Below are positions 12,560 to 61,009 of a stretch of 64,000 bases of DNA, piece after piece. A model generated the notes under the pieces. That model was given only the letters and a program-made list of their open reading frames with translations, searched no databases and was not told the DNA's origin. The position numbers and the translations under genes are program-made. Within the stretch, counting starts at the first letter, position 1; each line of letters begins with the position of its first letter. Location: positions 124,001-188,000 of the forward strand of contig NZ_OY760905.1 in the NCBI RefSeq assembly GCF_963664135.1, given 5' to 3'. This DNA is from an uncultured Acetobacterium sp. GTDB taxonomy: Bacteria > Bacillota > Clostridia > Eubacteriales > Eubacteriaceae.

Positions 12560-12726
12560 GGTAATTGCGAAAGTGCCGTGAGCTTTGAGCCCAGTTTCGC
12601 ACGAAACAATTTCTACACTGTACGTCGGACAGTTCGATGAACTGTTCGCCTACACGTTACGAAATCGTTTGTGGAAAATGCACCAAAAGCAACCGTTGTT
12701 CGATGTTTTTTAATTTCGCAAATACC
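12560..12726. repeat. Family-1 modular hairpin repeat, copy R1
   Basis: 167 bp with 13-bp terminal inverted repeats GGTAATTGCGAAA / TTTCGCAAATACC, flanked by TA on both sides. Inside is a quasi-palindromic module (CAATTTCTACACTG ... CGTTACGAAATCG) centred on CAG/CTG. It carries no ORF. Its right end is 28 bp before the ATG at 12755. Related copies are at 29980, 46195 (module only), 48289, 50409, 51559 and 60932. Confidence 0.85.
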
Positions 12727-12754
12727 TATTATTACAATTGCCAAGGAGACCATT

Positions 12755-14068
12755 ATGAATCGAATGATTGCAAAACTAATCCTCTATACCGACACAGATC
12801 CCAGAAATCTATTAACAAAGATGGGCCAGCTCTATGAACGCTTTTACAGAGGCGAAGATACGAAGGAAGAATTAATCGCAGAGAGTTATAAGCAGATCAA
12901 ATCACTGCTGGAAATTGCCACTGATTTTGGCTTCGATCGAAATCTGTGGCACCACTATCTGACCTTTTTACTGATCACCAATGAAAACCCGTTTAGCTTA
13001 ACCTGCGAAAAGGTGGGCAAAAAAGAAGGTAGCGTCAATTTTTTTGCTCAAAATGACAGCAGCGTCTTTAAAAATCTGTTTGATTTTGATTTTAATGACT
13101 TGGAAAAAGCCTTGGATATCGATTGTTTCAGCCGGATTTCCAACTATCGGGCCATCAAGAAGCCGGAATTCATGTATAATCAGAATGTCAGCGAAAAAGT
13201 AAAAAGTCTCAGTCTGAAGTTGGAAGCGGCAGAAAATGATCAGGAATTTTTTGATCGAATCACAGAATTCTATGGGGAATATGGCGTGGGTATGTTTGGA
13301 CTCAATAAAGCATTCCGCATTATTCCCAAAGCTGACGGCAATGGGGTGATCTTTAATCCGATCAATAATATGGATAAGGTTATGCTCAGTGATCTGGTGG
13401 GCTATGAAAGTCAGAAACAACGGCTGGTTGAAAATACCAAAGCCTTTGTGGAAGGCCGAAAAGCTAATAACGTACTGCTGTTTGGTGACAGCGGTACCGG
13501 GAAGTCAACCAGTATCAAAGCCATTGTCAACGAATTTTATGATCAGGGGTTGCGGATGATCGAAATCTATAAGCATCAGTTCAGGGATTTATCAAATGTC
13601 ATTGCACAGATAAAAAACCGCAACTATCGGTTTATTATTTATATGGATGATCTCTCATTTGAAGAATTTGAGATTGAATATAAATTTCTTAAAGCAGTCA
13701 TTGAAGGTGGCGTCGAAACAAAACCCGATAACATCTTAATCTACGCCACATCAAACCGACGTCATCTTATTCGGGAAACATGGAGTGATCGCAACGACAT
13801 GGAATCCAATAGTGACATCCATCGTTCCGATACCATGCAGGAAAAACTGTCACTGGTCAATCGCTTTGGCGTCAGTATTTTTTATGAGCGACCCAGTCAG
13901 AAACAATATTTTGGAATTGTGGCGGAACTGGCAAAACGGGAAGGTCTGTCCTTATCTGATGAAGAATTATGTCAGGAAGCCAATAAATGGGAGCTTCAAC
14001 ATGGTGGGATTTCGGGACGGACGGCGCAGCAATTCATCAATCACCTGCTCTCGATTAGCTTAGAATAA
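12755..14068 (+). CDS. DUF815-type AAA ATP-binding protein
   Basis: 437 residues. The N-terminal 200 residues are helical and of unknown role. A DUF815-like AAA core follows, with Walker A GDSGTGKST (about 250-260) and Walker B IIYMDDLSFEEFE (about 300). A sensor-like TSN and an arginine-containing C-terminal helical lid follow. Family knowledge: DUF815 ATPases are common in Firmicutes and lack a firmly assigned substrate. I chose the ATG at 12755 because AAGGAGA lies 5 nt upstream; longer readings start inside repeat R1. The gene is monocistronic between R1 and a terminator. The R1 hairpins probably lie in its mRNA leader. Confidence 0.85.
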   Translation: MNRMIAKLILYTDTDPRNLLTKMGQLYERFYRGEDTKEELIAESYKQIKSLLEIATDFGFDRNLWHHYLTFLLITNENPFSLTCEKVGKKEGSVNFFAQNDSSVFKNLFDFDFNDLEKALDIDCFSRISNYRAIKKPEFMYNQNVSEKVKSLSLKLEAAENDQEFFDRITEFYGEYGVGMFGLNKAFRIIPKADGNGVIFNPINNMDKVMLSDLVGYESQKQRLVENTKAFVEGRKANNVLLFGDSGTGKSTSIKAIVNEFYDQGLRMIEIYKHQFRDLSNVIAQIKNRNYRFIIYMDDLSFEEFEIEYKFLKAVIEGGVETKPDNILIYATSNRRHLIRETWSDRNDMESNSDIHRSDTMQEKLSLVNRFGVSIFYERPSQKQYFGIVAELAKREGLSLSDEELCQEANKWELQHGGISGRTAQQFINHLLSISLE

Positions 14069-14164
14069 ATTATCAAATAAAAAAACACTGTTAAATCGTT
14101 GACGTCCGTAAATCGCGTTGCAACAGCGCTTGATTTAAAAAATAGCTTGAACAATGAAAATAAG

Positions 14165-14216
14165 AATACACCAGAAAGCTGAATGATATGTTTGGCTTCT
14201 GGTGTATTTTTATTTG
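14165..14216 (+). terminator. Terminator after the DUF815 gene
   Basis: AATACACCAGAAAGC / GGCTTCTGGTGTATT hairpin with a 14-base loop and TTTTTATTT. The preceding 90 bp (14075-14164) hold no recognisable feature beyond short GC-rich inverted bits. Confidence 0.8.
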
Positions 14217-14337
14217 CAGATCTGCGTAAAATTCATAAAGTTGGATATTAATAAAGTAAACGGAATTAAATTTTAAATGTTAGAACAGCCAGATTGATTA
14301 AAAAATACAAAGTTAAAACAAAATAGGAGGCTATGAT

Positions 14338-16812
14338 ATGATGCCAGATGATTATTATCAGATACCATTGGAAAAATTAAAAAAAGTATGTGACGATGAA
14401 GATGTATTAAATTTCTCGATGACATCTCAGAATATCATCCCGCTAAGCTCCATCGCAGGTCAGGAGCGGGCAGTTAAATCCATGGAGTTTGGACTTGCCA
14501 TGGACGAAGATGGCTATCATATTTTTGTCGTAGGACCGTCGGGAACTGGCAAATATGATTATACTAAAGAAGTAGTCACCCAGGCAGCAGCTAACAGACA
14601 GGTGCCTTGTGACTGGTGTTATCTCTATAACTTTAGCAATAAAGATCAACCAATGGCAGTCGCATTTCCAGCAGGCCAGGGTCGGGAATTTCAGAAGGAT
14701 ATGGAAAAACTGGTCGATGAGCTCAAAAATATCATTCGAAATGCCTTTGAAAGTACCGACTATGAATTGAAAAGAGATCAAATTTTCAACACCTATCAAT
14801 TAAAAATGGAAGAGCTAGTCCAGATTATCAGGCAAAAAGCTTTTGAAGATGGATTTGGAGTAAAACCTGTAGGTGTTAAATTTGTCTTCATTCCGCTTAA
14901 AGATGGAAAACCCTATCAGCCCGAAGAATTTAGTAACCTCACAGATGATCAGCGTAGTCTCATCAATGAAAAACGATCGGGACTAATAAAAAAAATAGAT
15001 CATATTCTGACTGATGGACAATTTGCGGAAAGAAAGATGACTGCTCAGATTTTAGAATTGGCCAGAGAAACTACCTATGCAATTGCGGTACCATTAATTG
15101 ATGGCTTAAAAGCAAAATATGCGGAAATTCCCAAAATTGTTGAATATCTGGGGCATGTTTTAGACGATGTAGCAGAAAAAAACGGGCTTTTTATTCAGGC
15201 AGAAGCTTTTTCAGAGTCGCAGCCATCTTTCCAGAAGGAAAATGAAAATAATAGCGGCAATAAAGATGTTACGGCTGGAACAAGTATGAAGTATTTTAGC
15301 GGATCAGAAGAAAATAATCTATTTATCCAGTATCGCGTCAATTTGTTTATTAATAATGAAAAACAGCTGGGTGCACCAGTAATAATTGAGTCAAATCCGT
15401 ACTATTATAATGTTTTTGGCAAGGTTGAATACAAAAGTCAAATTCTGGTAATGAATACTGATTTTACCATGGTTAAGCCGGGATCTTTGCATCTGGCCAA
15501 TGGCGGTTACCTGATTCTTCAGGCAAAAGATCTTCTGTCTGATCCTTTTGTCTGGAACACATTAAAGAAAATGCTCAAAAACAGGCAGGCAATTGTGGAA
15601 AATATTGGTGAACAATATCGGACCGTACCAACAGTTACTTTAAAACCAGAATACATTCCTCTGAACATAAAAGTTATTCTCATCGGCAGTCCGCTTTATT
15701 ATATGATCCTTTCAAGTGACGAAGATTTTCGGGAGCTCTTTAAAGTGAAGGTGGATTTTGACTATGAAATGCCAAGAACCCCGGAAAATATTCATAAATA
15801 TGCATCCTTTGTGAGCTCAATCTGTAACGAAAAAGGTGCCATATCATTCGGTAAAACCGGATTAGCTGGCATGATTGAATATGGCTCACGACTGGCAGAA
15901 AATCAACACAAACTTTCGACCCGTTTTGGTGATGTGAAAGAAGTTGTTTTTGAGGCAATCACCTGGGCAAAAGCCGAAGGCTTAAAATATGTCGAATTGA
16001 CTCACGTGAAAAAAGCGATTAGTGAACGCAAATATCGGTTTAACAAATTGGAAGAAAAAATTCAGGATGGAATCTTTGAGAAAAAAATTATTATTGACAC
16101 CGAAGGGACTGCTGTCGGGCAAATAAATGGTCTTTTCATTATGCAAACAGGTGGTTATTCATTTGGGTTGCCCGCTCGCATAACGGCGGTTACGCATGTG
16201 GGCCATGGTGGAGTCATAAACATTGAACGGGAAACGGAAATGAGTGGCAATATCCACTCAAAGGGCGTACTGACTCTGGCCGGATATCTTGGTGGAAAAT
16301 TTGCTCAAGAAAAGCCATTGGGCTTTACAGCCCAGGTTACTTTCGAACAGCTTTATGATGGCGTGGAGGGGGACAGTGCTTCCAGCGCCGAACTTTATGC
16401 AATCATCTCCAGTCTGGCAGGAACTGGCATAAAGCAAAGCATTGCAGTAACCGGGTCCGTGGATCAACGCGGTGAAATTCAGCCGATCGGCGGTGTTAAT
16501 GAAAAAATTGAAGGATTTTTTGACATCTGTCGGGCTAAGGGATTAACAGGCGAACAAGGTGTTATGATACCAGCAAGCAATGTCGACAATCTTATGTTAA
16601 AAGATGAAGTTCTGGATGCAGTCAAAAATGGGCAGTTTCATATTTATGCAATCAGTCATATTGAAGAAGGTCTGGAGATTTTAACTGGTTTACCTGCGGG
16701 TAAAATAAACAAACAGGGCAGCTATGAGAAAAATAGCGTGTTTTATCGAGTCGAGCAAAAACTCAATGATTATCGCAAAGCACTTGAAAAGGAGCCGCCA
16801 AATATAAAATGA
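14338..16812 (+). CDS. Lon-like ATP-dependent protease (AAA_32/Lon_C type)
   Basis: 824 residues. An N-terminal AAA-like region with a large helical insertion (about 150-330) is followed by a second AAA part and a C-terminal Lon peptidase domain. The catalytic dyad is visible: Ser680 in GDSAS and Lys723 in GGVNEKIEG, 43 residues apart as in classical Lon. The family (YcbZ/LonB-like) degrades unfolded or specific proteins in the cytoplasm. Oddity: the N-terminal P-loop reads GPSGTGKYDYTK, with Tyr where Ser/Thr normally follows the lysine, so Mg-ATP binding there may be weak. AGGAGG lies 7 nt before the first of two adjacent ATGs. It stands alone between a terminator and the beta-CASP gene. 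Confidence 0.88.
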   Translation: MMPDDYYQIPLEKLKKVCDDEDVLNFSMTSQNIIPLSSIAGQERAVKSMEFGLAMDEDGYHIFVVGPSGTGKYDYTKEVVTQAAANRQVPCDWCYLYNFSNKDQPMAVAFPAGQGREFQKDMEKLVDELKNIIRNAFESTDYELKRDQIFNTYQLKMEELVQIIRQKAFEDGFGVKPVGVKFVFIPLKDGKPYQPEEFSNLTDDQRSLINEKRSGLIKKIDHILTDGQFAERKMTAQILELARETTYAIAVPLIDGLKAKYAEIPKIVEYLGHVLDDVAEKNGLFIQAEAFSESQPSFQKENENNSGNKDVTAGTSMKYFSGSEENNLFIQYRVNLFINNEKQLGAPVIIESNPYYYNVFGKVEYKSQILVMNTDFTMVKPGSLHLANGGYLILQAKDLLSDPFVWNTLKKMLKNRQAIVENIGEQYRTVPTVTLKPEYIPLNIKVILIGSPLYYMILSSDEDFRELFKVKVDFDYEMPRTPENIHKYASFVSSICNEKGAISFGKTGLAGMIEYGSRLAENQHKLSTRFGDVKEVVFEAITWAKAEGLKYVELTHVKKAISERKYRFNKLEEKIQDGIFEKKIIIDTEGTAVGQINGLFIMQTGGYSFGLPARITAVTHVGHGGVINIERETEMSGNIHSKGVLTLAGYLGGKFAQEKPLGFTAQVTFEQLYDGVEGDSASSAELYAIISSLAGTGIKQSIAVTGSVDQRGEIQPIGGVNEKIEGFFDICRAKGLTGEQGVMIPASNVDNLMLKDEVLDAVKNGQFHIYAISHIEEGLEILTGLPAGKINKQGSYEKNSVFYRVEQKLNDYRKALEKEPPNIK

Positions 16813-16910
16813 TATTTTAAAAAGAGCACTGCGGATGTTTAAGCTGCAAAGTATTCACTTGATATAAGTTTGAAATAAAATACAAAAATATTAAGAATGG
16901 GAGAAAGAAT

Positions 16911-18566
16911 ATGAAAATCAAATTTTTAGGAGCTGCGATGTCCGTTACCGGATCTTGTCATCTGATTACTACTGACCGATACAAGTTCCTCCTTGATTGC
17001 GGTTTATTTCAGGGCAGTGAAGCTTTGGAAGAGTTAAACTATCAGGAATTTGATTTCGACCCGGCGGAAATTGACTTTATGATCCTCAGTCATGCCCATA
17101 TCGATCATTGCGGTCGGATTCCCCTGCTGGTAAAACACGGGTTTAAAGGACAAATTTATTGCACCGGGGCAACCGCCGAAATATCTGATATCATGCTTCA
17201 GGACAGCGGCAATATTCATGAAATGGATGTCTCCTGGAAAAACAAGCGTACCAAAAGGTCCGGACAACCTCAGACTCAGCCCCTTTATACCCAGGCAGAT
17301 GCTGCCGCTTGCTTAAAATACTTTTTTCCGGTGGCTTATGGAAATTTATTTGAAATCAATCCGGATATAACCTTAAGACTGAATGAAGCCGGGCATATTC
17401 TGGGAGCAGCCATTATTGAACTTTGGATAAAAGAAGACAACAAGCAGTCAAAACTGGTTTACTCAGGTGACATAGGGATGGCCAATCAACGGATGCTCAA
17501 TGATCCAACGATCATATCCGAAGCAGATTATCTGATTATGGAAACCACCTATGGTGATCGTATCCATGAAACGCATTTGGAAAGCGGAAAACACTTCATT
17601 GATATCGTTTTGAAAACGATTAGTCGCGGGGGAACCGTTGTGGTTCCATCTTTTGCATTGGGGCGAACCCAGGATTTAATTCATGAGCTGGAACTGTTTT
17701 ATGAAAAACATGAAAACTTCCAGAATCAACTGGATAAGGTCAAGGTTTATATTGATAGCCCACTGGCTACCGACGCCACGGAAATTTTCAGGAGAAATGC
17801 CCACTATTTCAATGACAAGGTCAAGGAACGCATCAAAAGAGGCGATGAGTTGTTCTATTTCAGAAATTTAAATTTTACCAAAAGTATTGACCAATCCAAG
17901 GCCCTTAACGAAAATACTGCTCCGAAAGTCATTATTGCTTCAAGCGGGATGGCAGATGCCGGTCGAGTACAGCATCATCTCAAGCACTACTTATGGAAAT
18001 CGAAATCCAGTATTGTGTTTGTGGGCTATCAGGCGGAAGGAACCACGGGACGGGCAATCATTAGTGGTGAAAAATACGTGCGGATCTTGAGGGAGCGAAT
18101 TGCTGTCAATGCTGAAATCTATTTTTTAGAGGGTTTCTCCGCCCATGCCGATCGGAACTACTTGTTGGAATGGCTTTCCGGGTTTAAAGAGCAGCCGAAA
18201 AAAATCTTCCTTGTTCATGGTGAAGATGAACCCAAAAAGGCATTTGCCAATACCGTTAAGAATAGTTTAGGTTATGATTGTATTGTGGTAGAAGACGTAT
18301 CTGAATACAATTTGGAAGATGAAGAACAAATCATTTTGGATGATATAAAAAGTCAGGTAGAAGTCAAAAAGCAGTTGCTTCAAATTAAAGATAATTTGGA
18401 AGATATGCATGATGAATTGGACCTCCTTTTAACTGAACCAGGTCGGACAATCAAAGAAATGTTTCCACAGGAAAGGGTCGAAGAAATTTCGAGCCTCACC
18501 AGGGATCTTGAAAAAGCTTACACAAAAATCAAAACAATCATCAATGAAAAAGATCAACAGCAATAA
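16911..18566 (+). CDS. Metallo-beta-lactamase/beta-CASP ribonuclease-like protein
   Basis: 551 residues of the YSH1/CPSF-73 class (COG1236). The metal-binding signature HAHIDH is at about 63-68, preceded by the DCGLFQG strand (residues 29-35). Further ligands appear around EAGHILGA (about 160) and SGDIG (about 188). The beta-CASP motif and a C-terminal FSAHAD histidine follow. Known members cut or trim RNA, so a role in RNA processing is likely. Compared with the usual 450-460 residues it has a charged, probably coiled-coil C-terminal extension of about 80 residues (from about 470), perhaps for oligomerisation or partner binding. A ribosome site GGGAGA precedes the ATG. The stressosome operon follows 49 bp later with no visible terminator between. 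Confidence 0.87.
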   Translation: MKIKFLGAAMSVTGSCHLITTDRYKFLLDCGLFQGSEALEELNYQEFDFDPAEIDFMILSHAHIDHCGRIPLLVKHGFKGQIYCTGATAEISDIMLQDSGNIHEMDVSWKNKRTKRSGQPQTQPLYTQADAAACLKYFFPVAYGNLFEINPDITLRLNEAGHILGAAIIELWIKEDNKQSKLVYSGDIGMANQRMLNDPTIISEADYLIMETTYGDRIHETHLESGKHFIDIVLKTISRGGTVVVPSFALGRTQDLIHELELFYEKHENFQNQLDKVKVYIDSPLATDATEIFRRNAHYFNDKVKERIKRGDELFYFRNLNFTKSIDQSKALNENTAPKVIIASSGMADAGRVQHHLKHYLWKSKSSIVFVGYQAEGTTGRAIISGEKYVRILRERIAVNAEIYFLEGFSAHADRNYLLEWLSGFKEQPKKIFLVHGEDEPKKAFANTVKNSLGYDCIVVEDVSEYNLEDEEQIILDDIKSQVEVKKQLLQIKDNLEDMHDELDLLLTEPGRTIKEMFPQERVEEISSLTRDLEKAYTKIKTIINEKDQQQ

Positions 18567-18615
18567 ACCAGCCCTTAATTATTCGGATCAAACTTAAAAA
18601 TTTTAGGAGGATATG

Positions 18616-19416: not shown

Positions 19417-19450
19417 TGTTATCATTAGCAGGATAGGAATAGGTTGAGAT

Positions 19451-19828: not shown

Positions 19829-19835
19829 AGTAACA

Positions 19836-23988: not shown

Positions 23989-23990
23989 TT

Positions 23991-29968: not shown

Positions 29969-29979
29969 AGAAGGGTTGA

Positions 29980-30232
29980 GTATTTGCTAAAGTGCCGTGA
30001 GCTTTGCGATCAGTTTCGCACGAAACAATTTTTACACTGTACGTCGTACAGTTCTACGAACTGTTCGCCTACACGTTACAAAATTGTTTTCGTGAAGGCA
30101 ATGAGCCAATCACAAGCTTGCTTGTAGTTGGCGACTGTCCGCGAACAAGAAGAAATTCGCATTGCGATTTCTTCTTGTTGTGGAAACTGAACGCAAAGCA
30201 ATAACAATTCGAATTTTAATTTTTGAAATACC
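29980..30232. repeat. Family-1 modular hairpin repeat, copy R2
   Basis: 253 bp between lysA and dapL. It starts GTATTTGCTAAAGTGCCGTGAG and ends TTTTTGAAATACC. It carries the same CAG/CTG-centred quasi-palindrome as R1 (about 30029-30089). To its right is an extra block of about 90 bp containing two further hairpins: GCCAATCACAAGC/GCTTGTAGTTGGC and AAGAAGAAAT/ATTTCTTCTT. The right end is 35 bp before the dapL ATG. Confidence 0.85.
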
Positions 30233-30267
30233 TTTACAAAAATCAGTTACCGAAAGGAAAAAATAAA

Positions 30268-31592: not shown

Positions 31593-32849
31593 TTATTCAT
31601 AAACAATAAAGGATTCCGAATAGCGCTTGAGCAGTTCGCCGGCATCAGGGCATTTAATGAGCTCGAAGAGATTGAGGGCGATGACATCGCTAACCTGGTT
31701 ATGAAACAGTTCAGTTTCCTTGTTCATATTTTCAAACAAGGTATTCACTTCTTCAGCGACTTCACCGGTACCACCTGGTTTATAGGTTCCCGCTTCGACA
31801 CCTTCCAGAATTTTTTCAGCGGCCTGATTACTATAATCAGCCGACCGTTTTAAGGTTTCGTGGGCTTCGTAAAGCGGACTGTCACTGGGGAGATTCAGAC
31901 TTTTAACCAGATTACCGGCGAGAACAATCTCATGAGTTTTTTCTTTAACGGCTTCAATTACTGCTTTATCATATTCGATTTTTTCTTGAGCTTTTTCTTC
32001 GGTTTTTTCAGGTTCTTCAGTGGTCGTGCTTTTTTCTTCGGTGGCAGGAGCCGCCTCTTCCCCATGGGTGTTTTTTTCTTCGGCAGCAGGAGTAGCCTCT
32101 TCTCCATGGGTGCTTTTTTCTTCAACAGCAGGAGCAGCCTCTTCTGAAGTATTAGAAGCGACGAGTTCTTTAGAGGTATTCGGGGCCGTTTTTTTTGTCG
32201 GCTGAGTTGACTCTGTGGTGGTTGACGATGGCTCCTTCGACTCCGATTTCGTTTCCGATGCTGGCGCTTCAGTAGTTTTGGTGGCATTTTCAAGTTCGGT
32301 GGTAATCTCAGTATGGTTTTTATAACTGAGAATGTAGTTGTTAATCACATCACTGCCAACATATTCAGTAATTTTTGTTCCATTATCTGGATACATGCTG
32401 TTTAAGTCGATTTTCGTCAGCATTTCAACACTGTCTTCATATTCGCCTAAAAAAGAAAATAGCGCACTGGCATCATAGTAGTGCCCTTCCGAATAAAAGG
32501 TATCAGCTTGAATATAGATAGCCGCTTTGTCCACTGAATTATCTTCTTCATTAGCCGCATGAGCGCCAAAAAAAATCCCGCTTTTAAGAACAAAGAATGC
32601 GCCACCGCCGATGAGGAGAATGACGAGAACGGCTGGAATGATGATTTTTAGGGGTAGTTTTTTTCCGCTTTTTTTAGATTTTTTATTATTGGACTCTTCG
32701 TTTTCTTCCTGAATCATTTTAACGACTTCCGGGTTATCTGCAAGTTTTTCGGTGACTTTCTTTAATTTCTCATTTTTTTCAATACTTTTACTGCTCTTTT
32801 TTTTCTCTTTCTTTTCTTTTTTCTCTTTGGGTTGAAATAGTTTCGGCAA
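31593..32849 (-). CDS. Membrane-anchored protein with Lys/Glu-rich ends and 14-residue repeats
   Basis: 418 residues, no recognised family. A strongly basic cytoplasmic N-terminus (KEKKEKKEKKK, about 8-20) precedes one membrane helix (about 68-88). A TPR-like stretch (TFYSEGHYYDASALFSFLGEYEDS) follows, then a low-complexity Thr/Ser/Glu linker. In the linker a 14-residue unit (EEAAPAVEEKSTHG and two variants) is repeated three times. A helical C-terminal domain (about 300-418) ends the protein. Topology is probably N-in/C-out. Start is TTG 32849; AGGAGG lies 11 nt upstream and no ATG is in frame. The DNA repeats make length variation between strains likely. Confidence 0.75.
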   Translation of the reverse strand: MPKLFQPKEKKEKKEKKKSSKSIEKNEKLKKVTEKLADNPEVVKMIQEENEESNNKKSKKSGKKLPLKIIIPAVLVILLIGGGAFFVLKSGIFFGAHAANEEDNSVDKAAIYIQADTFYSEGHYYDASALFSFLGEYEDSVEMLTKIDLNSMYPDNGTKITEYVGSDVINNYILSYKNHTEITTELENATKTTEAPASETKSESKEPSSTTTESTQPTKKTAPNTSKELVASNTSEEAAPAVEEKSTHGEEATPAAEEKNTHGEEAAPATEEKSTTTEEPEKTEEKAQEKIEYDKAVIEAVKEKTHEIVLAGNLVKSLNLPSDSPLYEAHETLKRSADYSNQAAEKILEGVEAGTYKPGGTGEVAEEVNTLFENMNKETELFHNQVSDVIALNLFELIKCPDAGELLKRYSESFIVYE

Positions 32850-35605: not shown

Positions 35606-35704
35606 GTACCGACCAATTGTTAATCTGTTGTTTGCTGCAGAATCGGACAGGCTATCGCCGTGTCCGCTCTGATGCAAACAACATGATGTAACAATTGTCG
35701 GTAC
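35606..35704. repeat. Family-2 palindromic repeat, copy P1
   Basis: 99-bp imperfect palindrome. Outer arms GTACCGACCAATTGTTA / TAACAATTGTCGGTAC, middle arms GTTGTTTGC / GCAAACAAC, then CAGA/TCTG and CGGACA/TGTCCG around the tip. It lies 22 bp after htpG. A second copy at 62570 shares the architecture but carries paired substitutions in the arms. Confidence 0.88.
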
Positions 35705-35837: not shown

Positions 35838-35915
35838 ATGATTTTAACAATTGAAGTAGCTCGAACAATGAGATTATCGATGAGACATTGTTTTGAGCCT
35901 AAAGATAAAGTGTAA
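35838..35915 (+). CDS. Putative leader peptide (25 codons) upstream of the ABC-F gene
   Basis: A 25-residue ORF starts ATG 35838 with GGAAGG 10 nt upstream and ends TAA 35915. Its residues 11-16 read MRLSMR. Arg/Leu/Met-rich motifs of this kind (MRLR) are known in leader peptides of several ribosome-targeting resistance genes. Its stop codon abuts the left arm of a large inverted repeat (35914 on), and a terminator hairpin follows before the ABC-F gene. This is the layout of ribosome-mediated transcription attenuation. Translation of the ORF is not proven. Confidence 0.5.
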   Translation: MILTIEVARTMRLSMRHCFEPKDKV

Positions 35916-36009
35916 AACTTTTATTCTCATCGGTCTAAGCGCTAGTTTGGTATAGCATTGCTATACTTTATTTTGGTGCGCTTAAACCGATAACCATATG
36001 AAAAGTTTT
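35914..36009 (+). promoter_or_regulatory. Large leader inverted repeat of the ABC-F gene
   Basis: Arm AAAACTTTT ... ATCGGTCTAAGCGC pairs with GCGCTTAAACCGAT ... AAAAGTTTT. The tip is GTATAGCATTGCTATAC, an 8-bp stem followed by TTTATTTT. In the mRNA this would be a long hairpin between the leader ORF and the attenuator. Confidence 0.6.
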
Positions 36010-36047
36010 AAGGCCATGACGCAATGTTCGTTATGGCCTTTTATAAT
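36010..36047 (+). terminator. Candidate attenuator terminator before the ABC-F gene
   Basis: AAGGCCATGAC / GTTATGGCCTT, 11-bp stem with one wobble, 9-base loop, then TTATAAT. It ends about 80 bp before the ABC-F start codon and downstream of the leader promoter, so readthrough is required for ABC-F expression. Confidence 0.6.
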
Positions 36048-46148: not shown

Positions 46149-46177
46149 TATCTAGTAATTTAAAATTTTAAGAACAA
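46149..46177 (-). promoter_or_regulatory. Candidate asrABC promoter
   Basis: On the minus strand TTGTTC, 17-bp spacer, TAGATA. It is a weak match and the only candidate I see between repeat R4 and asrA. Confidence 0.35.
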
Positions 46178-46194
46178 ACCTTTATTGCTTTGAT

Positions 46195-46285
46195 GCCTGT
46201 TATCACAATCAATTTTGTAACGTGCAGGCGAACAGTCGGTAGACTGTACGACGTGCAGTGTAAAAATTGTTTGGTGATAACAGGC
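46195..46285. repeat. Family-1 internal module in its own palindrome, copy R4
   Basis: 91 bp between hcp and asrA. Outer arms GCCTGTTATCAC / GTGATAACAGGC are perfect and unlike the R1-R3 ends. They enclose the CAG/CTG-centred module (AATTTTGTAACGTGCAGGCG ... CAGTGTAAAAATTG) in the orientation opposite to R1-R3. Found 36 bp downstream of the hcp stop. Confidence 0.8.
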
Positions 46286-46320
46286 GGCGAAGCTCGATAC
46301 AGTTAATTCTAAAAAATAGA

Positions 46321-48273: not shown

Positions 48274-48288
48274 TTTCTTTAGATAGAT

Positions 48289-48336
48289 AGGCATTGGCGA
48301 AACGGATCAGAACGCTAACGGCACGTTCACAATTGC
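48289..48336. repeat. Family-1 minimal repeat, copy R5
   Basis: 48 bp from GGCATTGGCGAAACG to CGTTCACAATTGCC, the terminal inverted repeats of family 1 joined by the short GTGCCGT-AGC segment, in reverse orientation to R1. It ends 34 bp before the ATG at 48371. Confidence 0.75.
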
Positions 48337-48370
48337 CTCAATATTGTATTGAAAGAAAAGGGGACAATCG

Positions 48371-50362: not shown

Positions 50363-50409
50363 AAAGAGATCTGAAAAGAAATCTGAAAAGAAATTTGAAT
50401 TGAAGTTTG
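50362..50409 (+). repeat. Four tandem 12-bp repeats
   Basis: AAAAGAGATCTG, AAAAGAAATCTG, AAAAGAAATTTG and a decayed AATTGAAGTTTG follow one another, beginning at the last base of the preceding stop codon. They run directly into repeat R7. Confidence 0.8.
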
Positions 50410-50426
50410 GTAATTGCAAAAGTACC
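50409..50426. repeat. Family-1 remnant, copy R7
   Basis: GGTAATTGCAAAAGTACC: the left end of family 1 joined to the terminal ACC of the right end, followed by TATT as in R1 and R6. It looks like an internally deleted copy. It ends 48 bp before the GTG at 50475. Confidence 0.55.
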
Positions 50427-50474
50427 TATTTAGAAATAATAATAAAAAAAGAAAGAATAAAAAGTGAGGTAACT

Positions 50475-50948
50475 GTGATAAATCTGGAAATTCCCGGCCA
50501 CGAGCCCATCGTCGTGGAGCATGTGACCTTTGATTACAATGGCACCCTGGCGGTGGACGGCTATCTGGTCGATGGACTGAGAGAAAGACTGGTGGCGTTA
50601 GCAAAGCGGGGGGTGGCTGTGCATATTCTCACTGCCGATACCTTTGGTCTGGTACGAGAGCAATGCGGAGAGCTGCCGTTAACCATCGAAATTTTTTCAA
50701 AAGATAATATTTCCCAAAAGAAAAGGGCTTTTGTTGAAAAGATCGGCGGAGCGACAAATCTGGCTATTGGCAACGGCAATAATGACCGGGAAATGTTTGC
50801 CGAAAGTCGCTTATCGATTGTGGTGATGGGCAAAGAGGGCTGCTGCGTGAAGTCTTTGCTGGCAGCGGATATTGTGGTAAACAGCCCGTTGGATGCTTTG
50901 GATCTGTTGCTGAATACCGATCGGATCGTGGCGACGTTGCGAACCTGA
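50475..50948 (+). CDS. HAD-family hydrolase (soluble P-type ATPase-like, COG4087)
   Basis: 157 residues. Motif I is FDYNGTLA (about 20-27), with the nucleophile Asp but Asn in place of the second Asp of DxD. The motif-III Lys is in ISQKKRAFVEKIGG, and motif IV is GNGNNDREM (about 97). The length and motif match the small cytoplasmic proteins resembling the P-domain of P-type ATPases; their substrate is unknown. Start is GTG 50475 with GAGG 6 nt upstream; upstream in-frame codons from 50400 lie within repeats. Confidence 0.8.
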   Translation: MINLEIPGHEPIVVEHVTFDYNGTLAVDGYLVDGLRERLVALAKRGVAVHILTADTFGLVREQCGELPLTIEIFSKDNISQKKRAFVEKIGGATNLAIGNGNNDREMFAESRLSIVVMGKEGCCVKSLLAADIVVNSPLDALDLLLNTDRIVATLRT

Positions 50949-51378: not shown

Positions 51379-51558
51379 AATTTACACCTCTTAATTAATT
51401 ATAAAATGATCGTTTGAATTAAACATTAATGATAATCTATAACTTTTTTAGGATCTTGTAAAGGCGTAGAATGAAAATGGTTAAAAATACGCCATTTAGT
51501 AGCTGAATTTTATTATCACTTTTGTTAATTTAATATAAAATGGGGTAATGTGAAGTCT
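51379..51558. other. Divergent intergenic DNA with a hairpin
   Basis: AT-rich. GGCGTA at 51463-51468 and TACGCC at 51488-51493 can pair. No ORF or clear promoter was found; R3 follows. Confidence 0.35.
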
Positions 51559-51808
51559 AATACGAAAGTGCCGTGAGCTTTCCGTTCAGTTTCGCACGAA
51601 ACAACCAGAAGAAATCGCTACGCGAATTTCTTCTTTGTCGCGGGCAGTCGCCAACTACAAGCAAGCTTGTGATTGGCTCGTTGCCTTCGCGAATTTTTAC
51701 ACTGTACGTCGTACAGGCTACCGCCTGTTCGCCTACGTGTTACAAAATTGTTTGTGGAAACGAACGAAAAGCAAATAATGTTCAATTTTTATTAGGCTTT
51801 AAATAACC
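51559..51808. repeat. Family-1 modular hairpin repeat, copy R3
   Basis: 250 bp. The left part GAAAGTGCCGTGAGCTTT ... TTTCGCACGAAACAA matches R1/R2. The extra block seen in R2 is present, but inverted and placed left of the CAG/CTG module (about 51606-51695). The module itself keeps the R1/R2 orientation. The outermost ends have decayed. The right end (AAATAACC) is 30 bp before the ATG at 51839. Confidence 0.82.
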
Positions 51809-52696: not shown

Positions 52697-52768
52697 GGCC
52701 GAAACCCAATAAAACGTATTTTTATAGTTAGCGGAAAAAAACTTTCAAAAGCAATCAATTTAACCTCG

Positions 52769-52802
52769 GCAGCCTATGACCAAGCATAGGCTGTTTTTTT
52801 GC
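52769..52802 (+). terminator. Terminator after the hydrolase gene
   Basis: CAGCCTATG / CATAGGCTG stem with a 6-base loop and seven T. Confidence 0.9.
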
Positions 52803-52861
52803 GATGAATCGAAACAGTTGTTTAAAAAATGACCAGCGCCATCATAATCGATACTTTTTTT

Positions 52862-52896
52862 TGTCAATTGACAGTAATTTGGCCGAATGTTATAAT
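52862..52896 (+). promoter_or_regulatory. Consensus promoter with palindrome over the -35 box
   Basis: TTGACA (52868-52873), 17 bp, TATAAT (52891-52896): a perfect sigma-A promoter. TGTCAATTGACA (52862-52873) is a perfect 12-bp palindrome covering the -35, a likely repressor site. It drives the GlpA-like operon. Confidence 0.85.
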
Positions 52897-52957
52897 CATG
52901 TCCATAATTAGATAAAAACAATAAAACATAATAATAATAGGATAAAGGAATAGATGG

Positions 52958-55478: not shown

Positions 55479-55531
55479 TTTATTATTATGCTGATTGGCT
55501 TAGCCGATCGGGTTTGCGGAGGAAATTTTAA

Positions 55532-56161
55532 ATGAAAGAAAAAGTATTTGGAATAATTGGAGTGGCATTAATGATATTGGTCGGGGTCGCCTTTCCGGGC
55601 AATGCCCTGGCAGTCGCAGAAGAAGGTTCGGGCGGAGGCGCAGATCAACCGCTGACGATCGTCGCTGCCACCATTGCGGATGGCCAGAAGGGCGTGCCCC
55701 AAAATCAAGAAATTACCTTTGAATTCAGTAAAAATGTGGTTAATCTGACGGTTCAGGAAAACAATCAAAAATGTTTTGCAGTTACCGATCAGAGTGGACA
55801 ACCGGTGCGTTTTACGGTGGTGATGGCGGATGACCAGATCGAACGGGAGAAACGCAACTTTATTGGGATAACGATCAATGATGGCTTGCAGGCTGGCGAA
55901 ACCTATACCATTGCCATTAGTAAGAATCTGATGGCGAAAAATGGACAAAGTCTGGATCAGGACTATACCTATGGCTTTTCCGTGGCGGGAGCAGTGAAAG
56001 CAGAAACGACTACGACAGATACAGCGTCTCAAACCACCAGTTCCGGTATGAATTCGGGAATGGTCGTGCTGCTGGCAGCGCTGGGGATTCTGGTGGTGCT
56101 GGCGGTTATATTCGTCTTCTGGAAAAAAAAGAATGGCGGCAACAGTGACAGCGACCGTTAA
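55532..56161 (+). CDS. Secreted, membrane-anchored Ig-like (Big_5) domain protein
   Basis: 209 residues. A signal peptide (about 1-28, cleavage near ALA-VAEE) leads to one SbsA/Big_5-type Ig-like domain (about 40-150: PQNQEITFEFSKNV, INDGLQAGETYTI). A Thr/Ser linker and a C-terminal membrane helix (about 175-197) with a KKK tail follow. It should be exposed outside the membrane. Its 3' end overlaps the FecCD-type permease gene by 29 bp, so it may be a surface receptor feeding that importer (inference). GGAGGA precedes the ATG. Confidence 0.82.
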   Translation: MKEKVFGIIGVALMILVGVAFPGNALAVAEEGSGGGADQPLTIVAATIADGQKGVPQNQEITFEFSKNVVNLTVQENNQKCFAVTDQSGQPVRFTVVMADDQIEREKRNFIGITINDGLQAGETYTIAISKNLMAKNGQSLDQDYTYGFSVAGAVKAETTTTDTASQTTSSGMNSGMVVLLAALGILVVLAVIFVFWKKKNGGNSDSDR

Positions 56162-57200
56162 ACAGAATAGGCCGAATCAGCCCGCTAAACAACGTGATCA
56201 GCGAAAAAAAGTGCTGATCTATACAGCGTGTATCCTGGCTCCGTTTTTGATATTTTTGATTTCTCTTTTTATTGGAAAATATGATCTAACGCTGGGACAG
56301 GTTTTAGCTATCCTGAAGGCTGGTTATGGCAATGCGGCTGATGCAAAAGCCACGGTTATCTGGGAGGTTCGGATGCCCAGAGCACTTGTTGCGATTTTGG
56401 TTGGCGGCGCCCTGGCGGTTAGCGGCGGCGCTTTGCAAGGGGTTTTTCGCAACCCGCTGGTTGATTCGGGGATTCTGGGAGTCAGTGCCGGGGCGGGATT
56501 CGGAGCCTGTCTGGCCATTATTCTATTTCAAAATACCGGTGCCATTTACCTTTTGGCCTTTGCTTTCGGCCTGCTGGCGGTTTTCTTGAGTACTTTTACC
56601 GGACGGATTTATCAGAATTCCACAAATATCTCGATCGTCCTTGGCGGGGTGATTATCTCATCCATTTTTACCGCGTTGATTGCTTTTACCAAGTATCTGG
56701 CCGATCCCTACCGGGAACTTCCGGCGATCACGTTCTGGCTGATGGGGAGTCTGGCGACGGTGGATTATCAGGATCTGTTTTTTTGTCTGGGACCGATTGC
56801 GGTGGGGGTGATCGGAATCATGCTGATGCGCTGGAAAATCAATGTGATTTCAATCGGCGATAAGGAGGCCCAGTCGCTGGGGGTCAATGTTGATGGCTAC
56901 CGTTTTCTGGTGATTATTTTTACTGCGCTGGCAACGGCGGGGGCGGTCTGTGTCAGTGGAACGATCGGCTGGATTGGGTTGATCATCCCTCATATTGCCA
57001 GGATGCTGATGGGGAACGATAACCGAAAAATCCTGCCGATCTGTTTTTCATTGGGAGCCTGCTTTCTGCTGATTGTGGATGATCTGGCCCGGCTGCTTAC
57101 CGGCGGAGAAATGCCGATCGGTATCTTGACTTCCCTGATTGGGGGGCCCTTTTACATTTATCTGCTTAAAAAAACGAATGGAGGCAACTGGACGAAATGA
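56133..57200 (+). CDS. FecCD-family ABC importer permease
   Basis: 355 residues, about nine to ten membrane helices, with the family signature RMPRALVAILVGGALAVSGG (about 79-98), GVFRNPLVDSGILGVSAGAG and GTIGWIGLIIPHIARML (about 275). It imports iron-siderophore, haem, cobalamin or a related chelate; the cargo is not readable. It overlaps the Ig-like gene upstream and the ATPase gene downstream (ATGA), so the cluster is tightly coupled. Confidence 0.92.
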   Translation: MAATVTATVKQNRPNQPAKQRDQRKKVLIYTACILAPFLIFLISLFIGKYDLTLGQVLAILKAGYGNAADAKATVIWEVRMPRALVAILVGGALAVSGGALQGVFRNPLVDSGILGVSAGAGFGACLAIILFQNTGAIYLLAFAFGLLAVFLSTFTGRIYQNSTNISIVLGGVIISSIFTALIAFTKYLADPYRELPAITFWLMGSLATVDYQDLFFCLGPIAVGVIGIMLMRWKINVISIGDKEAQSLGVNVDGYRFLVIIFTALATAGAVCVSGTIGWIGLIIPHIARMLMGNDNRKILPICFSLGACFLLIVDDLARLLTGGEMPIGILTSLIGGPFYIYLLKKTNGGNWTK

Positions 57201-58015
57201 AACTGCTGGAAGTTTGCGATCTGCATTTTGCCTATCCCGAAAAGAAGATTTTGAATGGCATTGAACTCGAGGTGAGGGCTGGGGAAATCATCTGTCTCTT
57301 TGGCCCTAATGGCTGCGGCAAAACCACCCTGCTGGAATGTCTGCTGGGGCTGATCCCTCCCCAAAGCGGGCGTATCAGCCTAAAAAATCAGGATATCCGC
57401 ACCATGAAGGCCCGGGAGATTTCCCGTCACATTGCCTTTGTACCCCAGTTCCAGGAAAGCTCCTTTGGCTATACGGTGCTGGAGATGATCTTGATGGGTC
57501 GGACCCCACGGACATCGATTTTCGGAGAGCCAGATAAACTCGATCTGGAAGTAGCGGAAGCAGCTTTGGCGGATGTGGGGTTGTCCACCCTCCGGGACCG
57601 GAATTACAATAGTCTTTCCGGCGGCGAAGCCCAGCTGGTCAAACTGGCCCGAGCCATTGCTCAGGATACCAGCATCCTGGTATTGGACGAACCCACTGCC
57701 CACCTGGATTTTCGCAATGAGCTGAAGGTCTTAAAACAGATCAGCTGTCTGGCCAATCAGAAGGATCGCTGCATTATCATGGCTACTCATTTCCCCAACC
57801 ACGCCTATCTGCTGGAAAACGAAGGTAACGCCGTTCAGGTGGCGATGATGCGCCAGGGAAAGATCGCAGCCTTTGGTTCGACCAATGTGGTACTGGACGC
57901 TCCCCATATGCAGAATATCTTCGGGATTGAAAGCTTAGTTTCTGAAAATGTGCTGCCCAACGGTAACACGGTAAAATATATGATGCCGATTAATCTGCTG
58001 GAAGGGAGCTGGTGA
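57197..58015 (+). CDS. FecCD-associated ABC ATPase (FepC/BtuD-like)
   Basis: 272 residues, one cassette: Walker A GPNGCGKTT (about 36), Q-loop VPQFQ (about 82), signature LSGGEAQLVKLARA (about 138), Walker B ILVLDEPTAHLD (about 160) and H-loop ATHFPNHA (about 195). It powers the permease encoded just upstream (4-bp overlap). The substrate-binding lipoprotein follows 1 bp later. Confidence 0.93.
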   Translation: MKLLEVCDLHFAYPEKKILNGIELEVRAGEIICLFGPNGCGKTTLLECLLGLIPPQSGRISLKNQDIRTMKAREISRHIAFVPQFQESSFGYTVLEMILMGRTPRTSIFGEPDKLDLEVAEAALADVGLSTLRDRNYNSLSGGEAQLVKLARAIAQDTSILVLDEPTAHLDFRNELKVLKQISCLANQKDRCIIMATHFPNHAYLLENEGNAVQVAMMRQGKIAAFGSTNVVLDAPHMQNIFGIESLVSENVLPNGNTVKYMMPINLLEGSW

Positions 58016-58016
58016 C

Positions 58017-59138
58017 TTGGTGGAGAAAAAACGACAAAAGCTGATCCCAATCGGCTGGCTATTACTGGCGGTAATGCTGTTATTAAGTGCCTGCAGCGCG
58101 GCCGGAAACCAATCAGCCCCAGCGGTTCAGGCCGATCAAAACCAGCGGCTTGTCACCGATTCTCTGGGCCGAACTGTGGCAGTACCCAAGGAGATTGACC
58201 AAGTGGCCGCAGTTTTTTCTCCGGCTGTCCACATTATCTGTATGCTGGGGGATAGTGATAAAATTCAGTCAGTTTCGGAAGGTAATATGCGGGATCGCCT
58301 GCTGTTAAATCTCTATCCCACCATGGTAGATGCCCGTACCCCCAAGGGTGGCGGTGCTTTTAATATCGAAGAACTCTATCAGGAGCCATTGCCGGACATT
58401 ATTTTCTGTGACCCAGCTACCGTGAATGACGGAAAAACTATGAAGCAACTGGAAAAGTTTAATGTGCCGGTGGTGGCTATTGACTTTCAAACCATTGAAG
58501 ACCAGAAAACAGCGATTACGCTGATCGGGACGATCATGGGTCGGGAAGAAAAAGCGGCTCAATACTGTGCTTATCTGGATGAAACCCAAAAACTGATCAC
58601 CGATCGGATTGAGGCGGCCGGAAAAAGCGACTCGATCACGTTGTATCACGCCGTTAATGAGTTGCTTCGGGGCGATACTGAAGCATCGCTGAGCGCCGAT
58701 ATCATCAAGCGGATGGGGATCACTCAGTTGGGGGTAAAGGCAATGCCGGGACTCAATGATGCTAAAAACTATATCAGTCTGGAAACTTTGTTTGCCGATG
58801 ATCCCCAGTATATCATTGTCAACGGCGCTGATGTTTATGACTATATTATGAAAAATGAACGGTTGCATGTGCTTAAAGCATATCAGAATAACCATGTCTA
58901 TAATCTACCGGTGGGAATTTCCCGCTGGGGACAGCCCTATTCGCTGGAGACGCCCTTGTTTATGCTTTGGCTGGGAAAAACCATATATCCCGAGCTGTTT
59001 GGCGATCTTGAATTGAAGCAGGAAATGAAAAGCTATTATCAGACCTTTTTTGATGCTGATTTAAGCGATGATGTCTTAAATCAGATTCTGGAAGGCCGTG
59101 ATCTGCGGGAACTGGAGCCTGTTAACACAACCGAGTAA
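58017..59138 (+). CDS. ABC importer substrate-binding lipoprotein
   Basis: 373 residues. Signal peptide with lipobox LLLSAC (about 21-26). The class-III periplasmic-binding fold follows, beginning VTDSLGRTVAVPKEIDQVAAV, as in iron/cobalamin/haem chelate binders. The start is TTG 58017 directly after the ATPase stop (GGGAG 8 nt upstream); a GTG one codon later is an alternative. It completes an importer whose cargo is unknown. Confidence 0.87.
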   Translation: MVEKKRQKLIPIGWLLLAVMLLLSACSAAGNQSAPAVQADQNQRLVTDSLGRTVAVPKEIDQVAAVFSPAVHIICMLGDSDKIQSVSEGNMRDRLLLNLYPTMVDARTPKGGGAFNIEELYQEPLPDIIFCDPATVNDGKTMKQLEKFNVPVVAIDFQTIEDQKTAITLIGTIMGREEKAAQYCAYLDETQKLITDRIEAAGKSDSITLYHAVNELLRGDTEASLSADIIKRMGITQLGVKAMPGLNDAKNYISLETLFADDPQYIIVNGADVYDYIMKNERLHVLKAYQNNHVYNLPVGISRWGQPYSLETPLFMLWLGKTIYPELFGDLELKQEMKSYYQTFFDADLSDDVLNQILEGRDLRELEPVNTTE

Positions 59139-59203
59139 AGAAAAACGGAATATAGCAAAATCGAATTAAGTATTTTGGAATTGGCGCGTTATAAGAAAGG
59201 AAC

Positions 59204-60106
59204 ATGGTTTTGAACTATATTATTTGTATTGATGATACGGACAATCTGGAATCAAAAGGGACGGGCAGTATTGCCGAGGAACTCAAGAAGATATTGGAAG
59301 ACGAGTTTGGTGCAAAAACATCATTCGTTTCACGGCATCAACTGCTGTTGCATCAAAATATTGCCTACACCTCACACAACAGTTCTATGGCATTTCAATG
59401 TGAATTTGACGAGCGTAAAGAATTGGCTGCCAAAGATCGTCTATGCAGTTATCTACAACAGGAGGCAGCGGTGGGATCCGATCCGGGAATTGCAATCCTT
59501 AATACTTCTCGGTCTGCCTGTTTTGATCAGTTGATAGCCTACGGGAAAGATGCCAAGACCCGAGTTCTGACTAAAGCTGAAACTGAGCAAACGGCGGCAG
59601 CGTGTCAGGTATTTCTGAAGGCCCTGGGAGGCACCGGAGATGGGATCATCGGCGCACTTGCCGGGGTGGGATTGCGCTTTAGCGGTAATGACGGGGAAAT
59701 GAAAGGGGCGGTTGAGGGGTTTGAAAAAGGTGAAATCTATCAGGTGAAAACCCTCTTTAGTCATCCGGATATTGATGGTGTCAAGGAATACTCAGGTATT
59801 GATTTACAGGATACTGATGCGGTTTTAATCAGCTGGCGAGTGAAGTTGAGTCTGGAAAATGACCGACGGACACTGATTGTAAGAAGCAATCATGGACAGT
59901 ATGAAACCATGCACAAAGAAGACCTGAGACGTTATGACACGGCCAAAAACAATGTGACCTATTGTGATCGCTATCAGTCGGATGTTGAGGAAGAGTTGTG
60001 TGAAGGCAATCAAACCAGTTGTCTGAATTGTCGATTTCGAATCTGGGAAGAATTGAATTTCAGATGTGCCAAAGAATCAAAAACCGAAACGCTCGGATAT
60101 AAATAA
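59204..60106 (+). CDS. TiaS-like protein (tRNA-Ile2 agmatinylcytidine synthetase relative)
   Basis: 300 residues. The start NYIICIDDTDNLESKGTG has the IDDTD motif (about 7-11) of the archaeal TiaS family (COG1571), which modifies the tRNA-Ile anticodon with agmatine. FVSRHQLLLHQNIAYTSHNSS and GGTGDGIIGALAGVGLR also recall that family. The C-terminus carries cysteines (CDRYQSDVEEELCEG, CLNCRF, RC) that may bind zinc. Archaeal TiaS is longer, with OB-fold and zinc-ribbon parts that I do not see in full. Bacteria use TilS for this tRNA, so a different substrate is likely. The gene follows the importer by 65 bp. Confidence 0.6.
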   Translation: MVLNYIICIDDTDNLESKGTGSIAEELKKILEDEFGAKTSFVSRHQLLLHQNIAYTSHNSSMAFQCEFDERKELAAKDRLCSYLQQEAAVGSDPGIAILNTSRSACFDQLIAYGKDAKTRVLTKAETEQTAAACQVFLKALGGTGDGIIGALAGVGLRFSGNDGEMKGAVEGFEKGEIYQVKTLFSHPDIDGVKEYSGIDLQDTDAVLISWRVKLSLENDRRTLIVRSNHGQYETMHKEDLRRYDTAKNNVTYCDRYQSDVEEELCEGNQTSCLNCRFRIWEELNFRCAKESKTETLGYK

Positions 60107-60111
60107 AAATG

Positions 60112-60141
60112 TTGACGATTTCATTTCCATTATGCTATGAT
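60112..60141 (+). promoter_or_regulatory. Sigma-A promoter of glpP
   Basis: TTGACG, 18-bp spacer, TATGAT, 20 bp before the ATG at 60162. GAGGAG is the ribosome site. Confidence 0.75.
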
Positions 60142-60161
60142 CTAGTCAATGAGGAGATAAA

Positions 60162-60716
60162 ATGAGTTGGACTGATTTTTCAGAATTTCAAATTATTCCT
60201 TCCATCCGCAGGCTGGGTGACCTGGAAATCGCCCTTAACAGCGAGGCTCAGGTGATTTTGCTTACCGAAGCCCACATTGCCAATCTGCAGGATCTGGTCA
60301 AGCTGGTTCATGCCAAAGATAAAAAGGCACTGATTAATATGGAGTTGCTGGGTGGTTTTGGAAAAGACCACGTGGGAATGAAACTGCTAAAAAATTATTA
60401 CCATGTGGATGGGGTGATGTCAACTGACAGCGGCAAGCTGGGGATGGCAAAACAATGCGGTCTGGTAACCTTTCAGCGATTTTTTCTGCATGATTCGCGA
60501 TCATTTGAGACGGCATTGAAAATTATTGAGTGTTCCCGGGTTGACGGTGTCGAGCTGTTACCGGCAATTATGGCCTTGGATTGTTATCAAAAACTGACGG
60601 CGGTGGCAAAAATCCCGTTATTGGCGGGTGGCTTTATCCGGGACCGTGAAATGATGGAAAAAGTCAAGGCCTGCGGTTTTAAAGGCTTGACGGTTAGCGA
60701 CAAGTCGCTGTGGTAG
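60162..60716 (+). CDS. glpP: Glycerol-3-phosphate-responsive antiterminator
   Basis: 184 residues, the GlpP fold throughout: IPSIRRLGDLEIAL, LTEAHIANLQDLV, HVDGVMSTDSGKLGMAKQCG, VDGVELLPAIM, PLLAGGFIRDREMMEKVKACGFKGLTVSDKSLW (given here in pieces of the family pattern). In Bacillus, GlpP with glycerol-3-phosphate binds leader mRNA of glp genes and prevents termination. A terminator sits 65 bp downstream and upstream of the kinase gene, and could be its RNA target (inference). It has its own near-consensus promoter. Confidence 0.9.
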   Translation: MSWTDFSEFQIIPSIRRLGDLEIALNSEAQVILLTEAHIANLQDLVKLVHAKDKKALINMELLGGFGKDHVGMKLLKNYYHVDGVMSTDSGKLGMAKQCGLVTFQRFFLHDSRSFETALKIIECSRVDGVELLPAIMALDCYQKLTAVAKIPLLAGGFIRDREMMEKVKACGFKGLTVSDKSLW

Positions 60717-60780
60717 CGTGATTTTGGATTTCTTGATTTATAATAAAACAAAATAAAATGTGCCGGATGGTAATTGTGTG

Positions 60781-60838
60781 AGTCCTGCTTAGTAAATGTG
60801 ATGAATTGTGTCGCATTTATTAGGCAGGACTTTTTTTA
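60781..60838 (+). terminator. Strong terminator between glpP and the FGGY kinase
   Basis: AGTCCTGCTTAGTAAATG / CATTTATTAGGCAGGACT stem with a 20-base loop and seven T. Besides ending glpP, it might be a GlpP-controlled leader terminator for the kinase if transcription starts in 60717-60780 (TTGATT-N15-TAAAAT is visible). Confidence 0.85.
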
Positions 60839-60854
60839 GTGAACAAAGCGGGTT

Positions 60855-60884
60855 TGTGGGCTAGGTAGTACCCGCCCTACGAAC
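60855..60884. repeat. Short 30-bp repeat, degenerate copy (with 63551)
   Basis: GTAGTACCCGCCCTACGAAC matches the copy at 63551-63580 (GTAATACCCGCC-CTACGAAC), where the GGCGGG/CCCGCC palindrome is intact. No function is evident. Confidence 0.5.
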
Positions 60885-60931
60885 TGATGTGTGACGGTGC
60901 GGTGTATCAAAGTTTAAAATTAAAAAAAATA

Positions 60932-60979
60932 GGCATTAGCGAAACTGGGCCCAAAGCTCACGACACTTTCGCAATTACC
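60932..60979. repeat. Family-1 minimal repeat, copy R6
   Basis: 48 bp from GGCATTAGCGAAACTGGG to ACACTTTCGCAATTACC with AATA/TATT flanks, i.e. TA on both sides. Same length and reverse orientation as R5. The right end is 30 bp before the kinase ATG at 61010. Confidence 0.85.
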
Positions 60980-61009
60980 TATTCAAAAAAATAAAGTGGA
61001 GGTTACAAA

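Follow-up and report, generated by a model that had tools for sequence, protein, structure and literature searches.

A putative miniature inverted-repeat element of Acetobacterium lies at a near-constant offset from Shine–Dalgarno-like motifs

Introduction

The Correia/NEMIS elements of Neisseria end in a Neisseria-type terminal inverted repeat (TIR), different from the one described below, and duplicate a TA target. More generally, bacterial miniature inverted-repeat transposable elements (MITEs), as portrayed in the accessible portion of PMC10969869, are short, non-coding, high-copy sequences with TIRs, a target-site duplication (TSD) and a palindromic centre but no transposase of their own, features that they share with family-1, the repeat family analyzed here. 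Correia/NEMIS elements are likewise hairpin MITEs found mostly immediately upstream of genes, and resemble family-1 in both respects (PMC2649163 and PMC10969869, each in part). Similar to family-1, RUP, ERIC and YPAL are small mobile intergenic repeats; according to the accessible part of PMC2229807, ERIC is co-transcribed with its neighbours and YPAL has both empty and filled sites.

The window studied here is a stretch of 64,000 nucleotides (G000:C1:124001-188000) from a 4.08-Mb, single-contig Acetobacterium genome. A preliminary description of the window reported that copies of family-1 lie at a near-constant distance before start codons, and suggested that a conserved leader RNA structure, RNase site or translational control element might be responsible. 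Here we confirm that the spacing observed in the window is real and extends beyond it. We argue that the spacing is very probably best explained by target choice at a purine-rich, Shine–Dalgarno (SD)-like DNA motif, intragenic insertions being for the most part either lost or avoided.

Results

Judged by its sequence, family-1 is a small, non-coding, non-autonomous DNA transposon (MITE) of Acetobacterium. Its copies start with TAGGTAATTGCGAAA and end with the inverted repeat of TAGGTAATTGCGAAA; AGGTAATTGCGAAA-type TIRs were found at both ends, with T and A outside them in 97% and 96%, respectively, of 120 sites. A full copy measures 169 bp when counted from AGG to CCT and 171 bp with the terminal TA. 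Elements found by a terminus pair plus a duplication ranged from 50 to 266 bp, 91 of 133 being 168–169 bp long, and other lengths included 257–259, 132, ~104, 86, 68, 58 and 50 bp. The 50-bp form (52 bp with TA) retains the termini and a short centre. In some copies a palindromic module of ~88 bp is added, at either of two positions that mirror each other. Exact duplications of 10–12 bp, with a mode of 11, flanked 50 of 65 copies. The longest ORF lying fully within one 169-bp copy had 29 codons; ORFs of 54 and 56 codons extended beyond the ends of the same copy.

Allowing up to two mismatches, we counted 70, 111, 99 and 93 cores in the window's own genome (G000), G010, G005 and G016, respectively, against 0–1 for a reversed control pattern. 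Family-1 matched 18 of 61 genomes searched, namely the own genome and 17 other Acetobacterium genomes (G014 at no better than E 7e-4); the 43 searched genomes outside Acetobacterium gave no match. All 55 named stretches containing the exact core pattern were labelled as Acetobacterium, a set from which records of the own or very near genomes may be absent. A pattern scan of IMG/VR and a plasmid BLAST returned no match to family-1.

Seven copies (R1–R7) were located in the window. R1 is a full-length copy of 171 bp with the terminal TA (12558..12728, plus strand), bounded by TIRs and by an 11-bp TSD whose distal copy (12547..12557) is identical to the gene-proximal one (12729..12739). An SD-like AAGGAG, assigned by its sequence and offset class, follows at 12743..12748 (plus strand), ahead of the ATG at 12755. 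The orthologous locus L227 of G005, whose protein is 99% identical, lacks the element and has the 11 bp only once, and its SD and start are intact. R2 (~29978..30233, plus strand) and R3 (~51554..51807, plus strand), both delimited by profile matches and by their inverted repeat to each other, carry the ~88-bp module at mirror-image positions; no clear TSD was found at either. The module at 30089-30181 in R2 is inverted relative to that at 51601-51693 in R3, as if the element interior had flipped. R4 (46155..46317, minus strand) is a degenerate full-length copy that is off the spacing: the start that it faces on one side is 124 bp away, and a stop lies 3 bp from its other end. R5 (48288..48339) and R6 (60930..60981), both on the minus strand and thus opposite to R1–R3, are 52-bp miniatures of the form retaining the termini and a short centre. 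The element at R6 is also carried by the same-species genome G061; of 12 loci compared over the 120 bp upstream of this gene, 9 lack it, and G008 has an apparent degenerate copy there. R7 (50408..50428, plus strand) is a 21-bp remnant; in locus L107 of an A. woodii MAG, a full element occupies the corresponding position ahead of this gene.

Several other repeats were noted in the window. A second palindromic family of ~99 bp, unlike family-1 in its spacing, occurs at 35606-35704, 423 bp before the next start, and at 62570-62667, 87 bp before it. A long imperfect palindrome, recognized by eye, lies at ~35906-36020 between an Hsp90-like gene and the next gene, and three 35-bp repeats spaced at 42 bp lie within a minus-strand ORF at 32026-32144. 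The neighbouring large ORFs 7326-9662 and 10044-12353 share a 300-bp stretch of 77% identity (8763-9062 and 11460-11759).

A search for an autonomous partner, defined as a terminus pair with a duplication and a length above 266 bp, found none in the fetched loci at lengths of up to 4.5 kb; these covered 100 of 262 TIR matches in G010, where an autonomous copy may have been missed. PF01609 was absent from the own genome and present in 15 of 19 genomes of the genus, and no terminus pair flanked 30 PF01609 loci among the matches listed (1.5-kb flanks), although single terminus-like sites at 2–3 mismatches were seen. Similarly, 20 PF00872 loci had no terminus pair and one single site at 2 mismatches. 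PF03400 was found in 0 of 19 Acetobacterium genomes, and PF06782 in 0 of 8 genomes, a search in which the controls were likewise without a match.

For R1, R2, R3, R5 and R6, the preliminary description gave distances of 28, 35, 30, 34 and 30 bp to the start codon, and our measurements from the CCT/AGG end to the ATGs at 12755, 30268, 51839, 48371 and 61010 agreed closely (27, 34, 31, 32 and 29 bp). R7 lies ~47 bp before the GTG at 50475, close to the 48 bp reported. Under uniform insertion, the probability of a distance of 22–36 bp for each of six window copies is 0.02–0.5. A larger sample combined 85 elements of the own genome, 73 of named loci and 48 of G010. These 206 elements became 196 after removal of 10 orthologous duplicates, and 179 after a further 17 without a called gene on both sides were dropped; 5 half-elements lacking the right terminus were left out. 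The named loci had been picked by the exact core pattern, which favours well-kept copies, and gene and SD calls came from our own simple caller.

The distance histogram proposed earlier, drawn over the fetched copies rather than every copy per genome, peaked at 26–31 bp. In total, 142 of the 179 copies lay 22–36 bp from a start, compared with 34.6 expected from uniform intergenic insertion, and none of 20,000 simulations of such insertion reached 142, bearing out the view that random insertion would not give this spacing. The excess was present in each set (own genome, 64/81 against 14.8 expected; named loci, 43/56 against 11.7; G010, 35/42 against 8.0), and 134 of 158 own and named elements had a start within 60 bp. 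In same-strand gaps that would be shorter than 50 bp when empty, 59 of 65 copies were at 22–36 bp (19.8 expected), as were 43 of 55 in empty gaps of at least 150 bp (4.2 expected). Convergent gaps contained 7 of the 179 copies. The end facing the gene was the right one in 79 cases and the left one in 70.

We then defined insertion sites by terminus pair and duplication only, with no reference to genes. After 5 redundant or edge sites were dropped from 133, 128 non-redundant sites remained, 80 of them from G010. An SD-like motif (GGAG/GAGG/AAGGA-type, score at least 4) was found at an offset of 14–22 on one side only in 112 of the 128 and on both sides in none; four control offset ranges gave 5, 3, 7 and 1 motif sites among the same 128. 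The far side of the insertion displayed A+T richness and no other motif. In a slightly wider motif search, 106 sites preceded an ORF of at least 45 codons, 14 had the motif without such an ORF, and 8 had no motif. Three of the 14 had ORFs of 20–44 codons and 11 had shorter ones or none; several of these gene-less motifs, e.g. at L047 and L193, are in terminator stems.

Among the 106 sites with a good ORF, the mean distance from element end to SD was 17.4 bp (sd 1.81), and the standard deviations of the SD-to-start and end-to-start distances were 2.03 and 2.65. The end-to-SD and SD-to-start distances were nearly uncorrelated (−0.055), and their two spreads sum to the end-to-start spread. Since a start-codon landmark would make this correlation negative, the near-zero value indicates that the spacing is anchored on the motif and not on the start codon. 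For the best-kept copies, the correlation was −0.28 (73 of 90), and −0.115 in 68 after outlier trimming.

The motif classes provided a further comparison. The base marking the anti-SD register was at 16.8 bp from the element end for GGAGG (n = 38), 17.2 for GGAG (n = 51), 17.1 for GAGG-only (n = 9) and 19.4 for other sites (n = 5), and at 19.7 bp for AAGGA-only sites lacking GGAG or GAGG (n = 17), a displacement of 2.7 bp (P 5e-8). From this base to the start, the spacing did not change (11.0, 11.3 and 10.8 bp for AAGGA-only, GGAGG and GGAG, respectively), and the element-to-start distance of ~28 bp accordingly lengthened to 30.6 bp at AAGGA-only sites. Reading of a purine-rich G run in DNA, ~20 bp away from the end, would predict such a shift; placement by the ribosome or by the start codon would not.

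The family has a conserved fold, which bears on the possibility that selection keeps a 5' leader structure, acting as an RNase III site or in translational control, at a functional distance from the ribosome-binding site. On either strand, a full copy forms a single long hairpin, and one copy folded far below its shuffles on both (z −11.1 and −9.7). Using a structure derived from one of 67 aligned copies (67 of the 88 non-redundant full copies), we found 93% of inner-stem cells paired, compared with 89.5% in shuffles. Changes on both sides occurred at 16 pairs, compared with 8.2 in shuffles and 4–9 in slid controls. Stem conservation and compensatory changes thus speak for this idea. Applied to the alignment, RNAalifold recovered no more than 23 pairs, and its covariation term was weak. 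As for which strand would act as RNA, G-T outnumbered A-C overall (260 and 184 cells), the most variable inner pair had 13 A-C and no G-T, and neither strand carried a clear RNA signature in G-U versus A-C pairs. No Rfam family matched the element: the window gave 0 matches at gathering scores, and three loci searched at E ≤ 1 yielded only tRNA and plastid-ycf2 matches, outside the element. In locus L037, Rfam placed five tRNA genes around an element copy, at 423-727, 1924-1995 and 3211-3283.

Other data run against a leader RNA that sets the spacing, and this part of the preliminary description was not supported. Both orientations are used (79 versus 70), the distance is anchored on the motif and follows its register shift, some copies sit beside gene-less motifs with that offset retained, and the 50/52-bp copies, without most of the hairpin, still keep the spacing. 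We consider this explanation improbable; judging from these features, a leader-RNA function would not be needed to account for the spacing, though a secondary regulatory effect might exist in individual genes. With the stem conserved and no clear RNA signature on either strand, the structure may owe its maintenance to transposition, to palindrome-correcting replication or to a function as RNA. The placement in 5' leaders downstream of promoters, predicted earlier for R1 and R5, gained support at R1: a promoter-like pair recognized by eye, TTGACG-17-ATAAAC, ends 35 bp ahead of the element and is also present upstream of the same gene in L227 and L233, relatives without R1. An R1-type copy is thus probably located in a 5' leader.

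Insertion might instead be positioned by translation, through the 30S subunit or anti-SD pairing. In favour of this, the motif belongs to the SD word family and genes beside copies have stronger SDs, which also speaks for target choice at the motif; weak SDs were found at 2.1% of 188 gene-facing ends and ~20% of 436 control genes, a comparison unconditioned on SD presence in which the caller relied on SD strength when placing the starts of copy-flanking and control genes alike. Against it, the anti-SD register varies, with AAGGA-only sites displaced by 2.7 bp, and insertions also occur at SD-like motifs that lack an ORF, some of them in terminator stems. Moreover, gene and gene-less motifs are used at 106:14, a ratio no higher than that of the motifs on offer in the non-coding DNA of the window (26:7; Fisher P 0.16, small sample). 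Translation-coupled insertion is therefore very unlikely.

Still less likely is insertion drawn to promoters or transcription starts, with an open complex or DNA in early transcription as the attractant. By eye, a −10-like box precedes several copies, and the targets are A+T-rich, but the 65 copies in same-strand gaps of less than 50 bp had little promoter room, 59 of them being at 22–36 bp, the pair at R1 ends 35 bp short of the element, and the far side of 120 sites showed no −10-like motif at a constant position. Transcription start sites, first considered because of the −10-like boxes, were dropped as targets on account of the short operon gaps and the far-side logo.

Random insertion followed by purifying selection that spared only copies between promoter and SD is hardly credible: few if any copies interrupt genes (2/128 candidates), as it would have it, yet gaps of at least 150 bp offer other harmless places and still have 43 of 55 copies at 22–36 bp against 4.2 expected, the same peak is seen in young copies with near-perfect termini and duplications, and in the second repeat family the two window copies are 87 and 423 bp upstream of the next start.

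Discussion

We propose the following route to target choice at the SD-like motif. A transposase acting in trans would move family-1 and leave an 11-bp duplication of an A+T-rich target, with the first G of a purine-rich, SD-type motif (GGAG, GAGG or AAGG) usually 4–6 bp past the duplication. Insertion would occur ~17 bases ahead of a GGAG-type motif, in either element orientation, and would leave SD and start codon intact. The transposase or a partner presumably reads the motif as DNA. Copies would come to lie ~28 bp before starts because, in this genome's non-coding DNA, the motif is mostly a ribosome-binding site. The termini, the duplications, one clean empty site, the motif offset and the orientation neutrality are the parts of this scheme that can be read from the DNA itself. 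Weighing against it are the negative search for an autonomous partner in the fetched loci, the 8 of 128 sites without a motif, the off-spacing position of R4 and the correlation of −0.28 among the best-kept copies.

Target choice does not by itself account for the sparing of genes. Of the A+T-flanked motifs in the window, 52 of 85 fall inside genes. Reconstruction of empty sites placed a called ORF across the junction in 2 of 128 (L115 and L129), and in L129, where an SD and a start are likewise found next to the element, the ORF may be two neighbouring genes read as one. No called gene spanned an element among the 196, nor among 239 after the addition of 43 further G010 elements without a redundancy filter against the rest, a criterion blind to genes interrupted by the element itself. 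As intragenic motifs are common and at most 2 of 128 copies interrupt a gene, selection or another cue must also act; insertions at many intragenic motifs were presumably lost by selection.

If the motif is read as DNA, the element would multiply in a compact genome with little gene damage by aiming just upstream of the word for ribosome binding. As a caution, a constant repeat-to-start spacing can arise from target choice alone. Family-1 additionally offers a compact 52-bp pair of ends and a directly testable target rule. More speculatively, and on balance doubtful, a bacterial transposition system may have evolved to exploit the SD word in DNA as a safe landing pad, spreading roughly a hundred structured hairpins, the shortest of 52 bp, among the mRNA leaders of one genus, with the covarying hairpin kept as it leaves the host gene expressible either way.

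How does family-1 compare with known elements? Assignment to Correia/NEMIS was considered and rejected, since the duplication is 11 bp and not TA and the terminus differs from the Neisseria-type TIR; we also know of no SD-anchored spacing for Correia/NEMIS. Unlike family-1, Correia/NEMIS elements can supply promoters and RNase III sites (PMC2649163 and PMC10969869, accessible portions). The ends of RUP, ERIC and YPAL differ from those of family-1 in being mostly of TA type, and YPAL has duplications of 3–26 bp beside dyads; the available part of PMC2229807 gives no SD landmark for any of the three. The terms Shine-Dalgarno, ribosome and start codon do not occur in the main text of PMC10969869. 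A search of PMC full text, which mostly excludes subscription papers, together with the accessible parts of PMC10969869 and PMC2229807, found no description of SD-targeted insertion or of family-1. What sets family-1 apart from the MITEs covered in the accessible part of PMC10969869 is its 11-bp duplication at a fixed offset from a GGAG-type motif.
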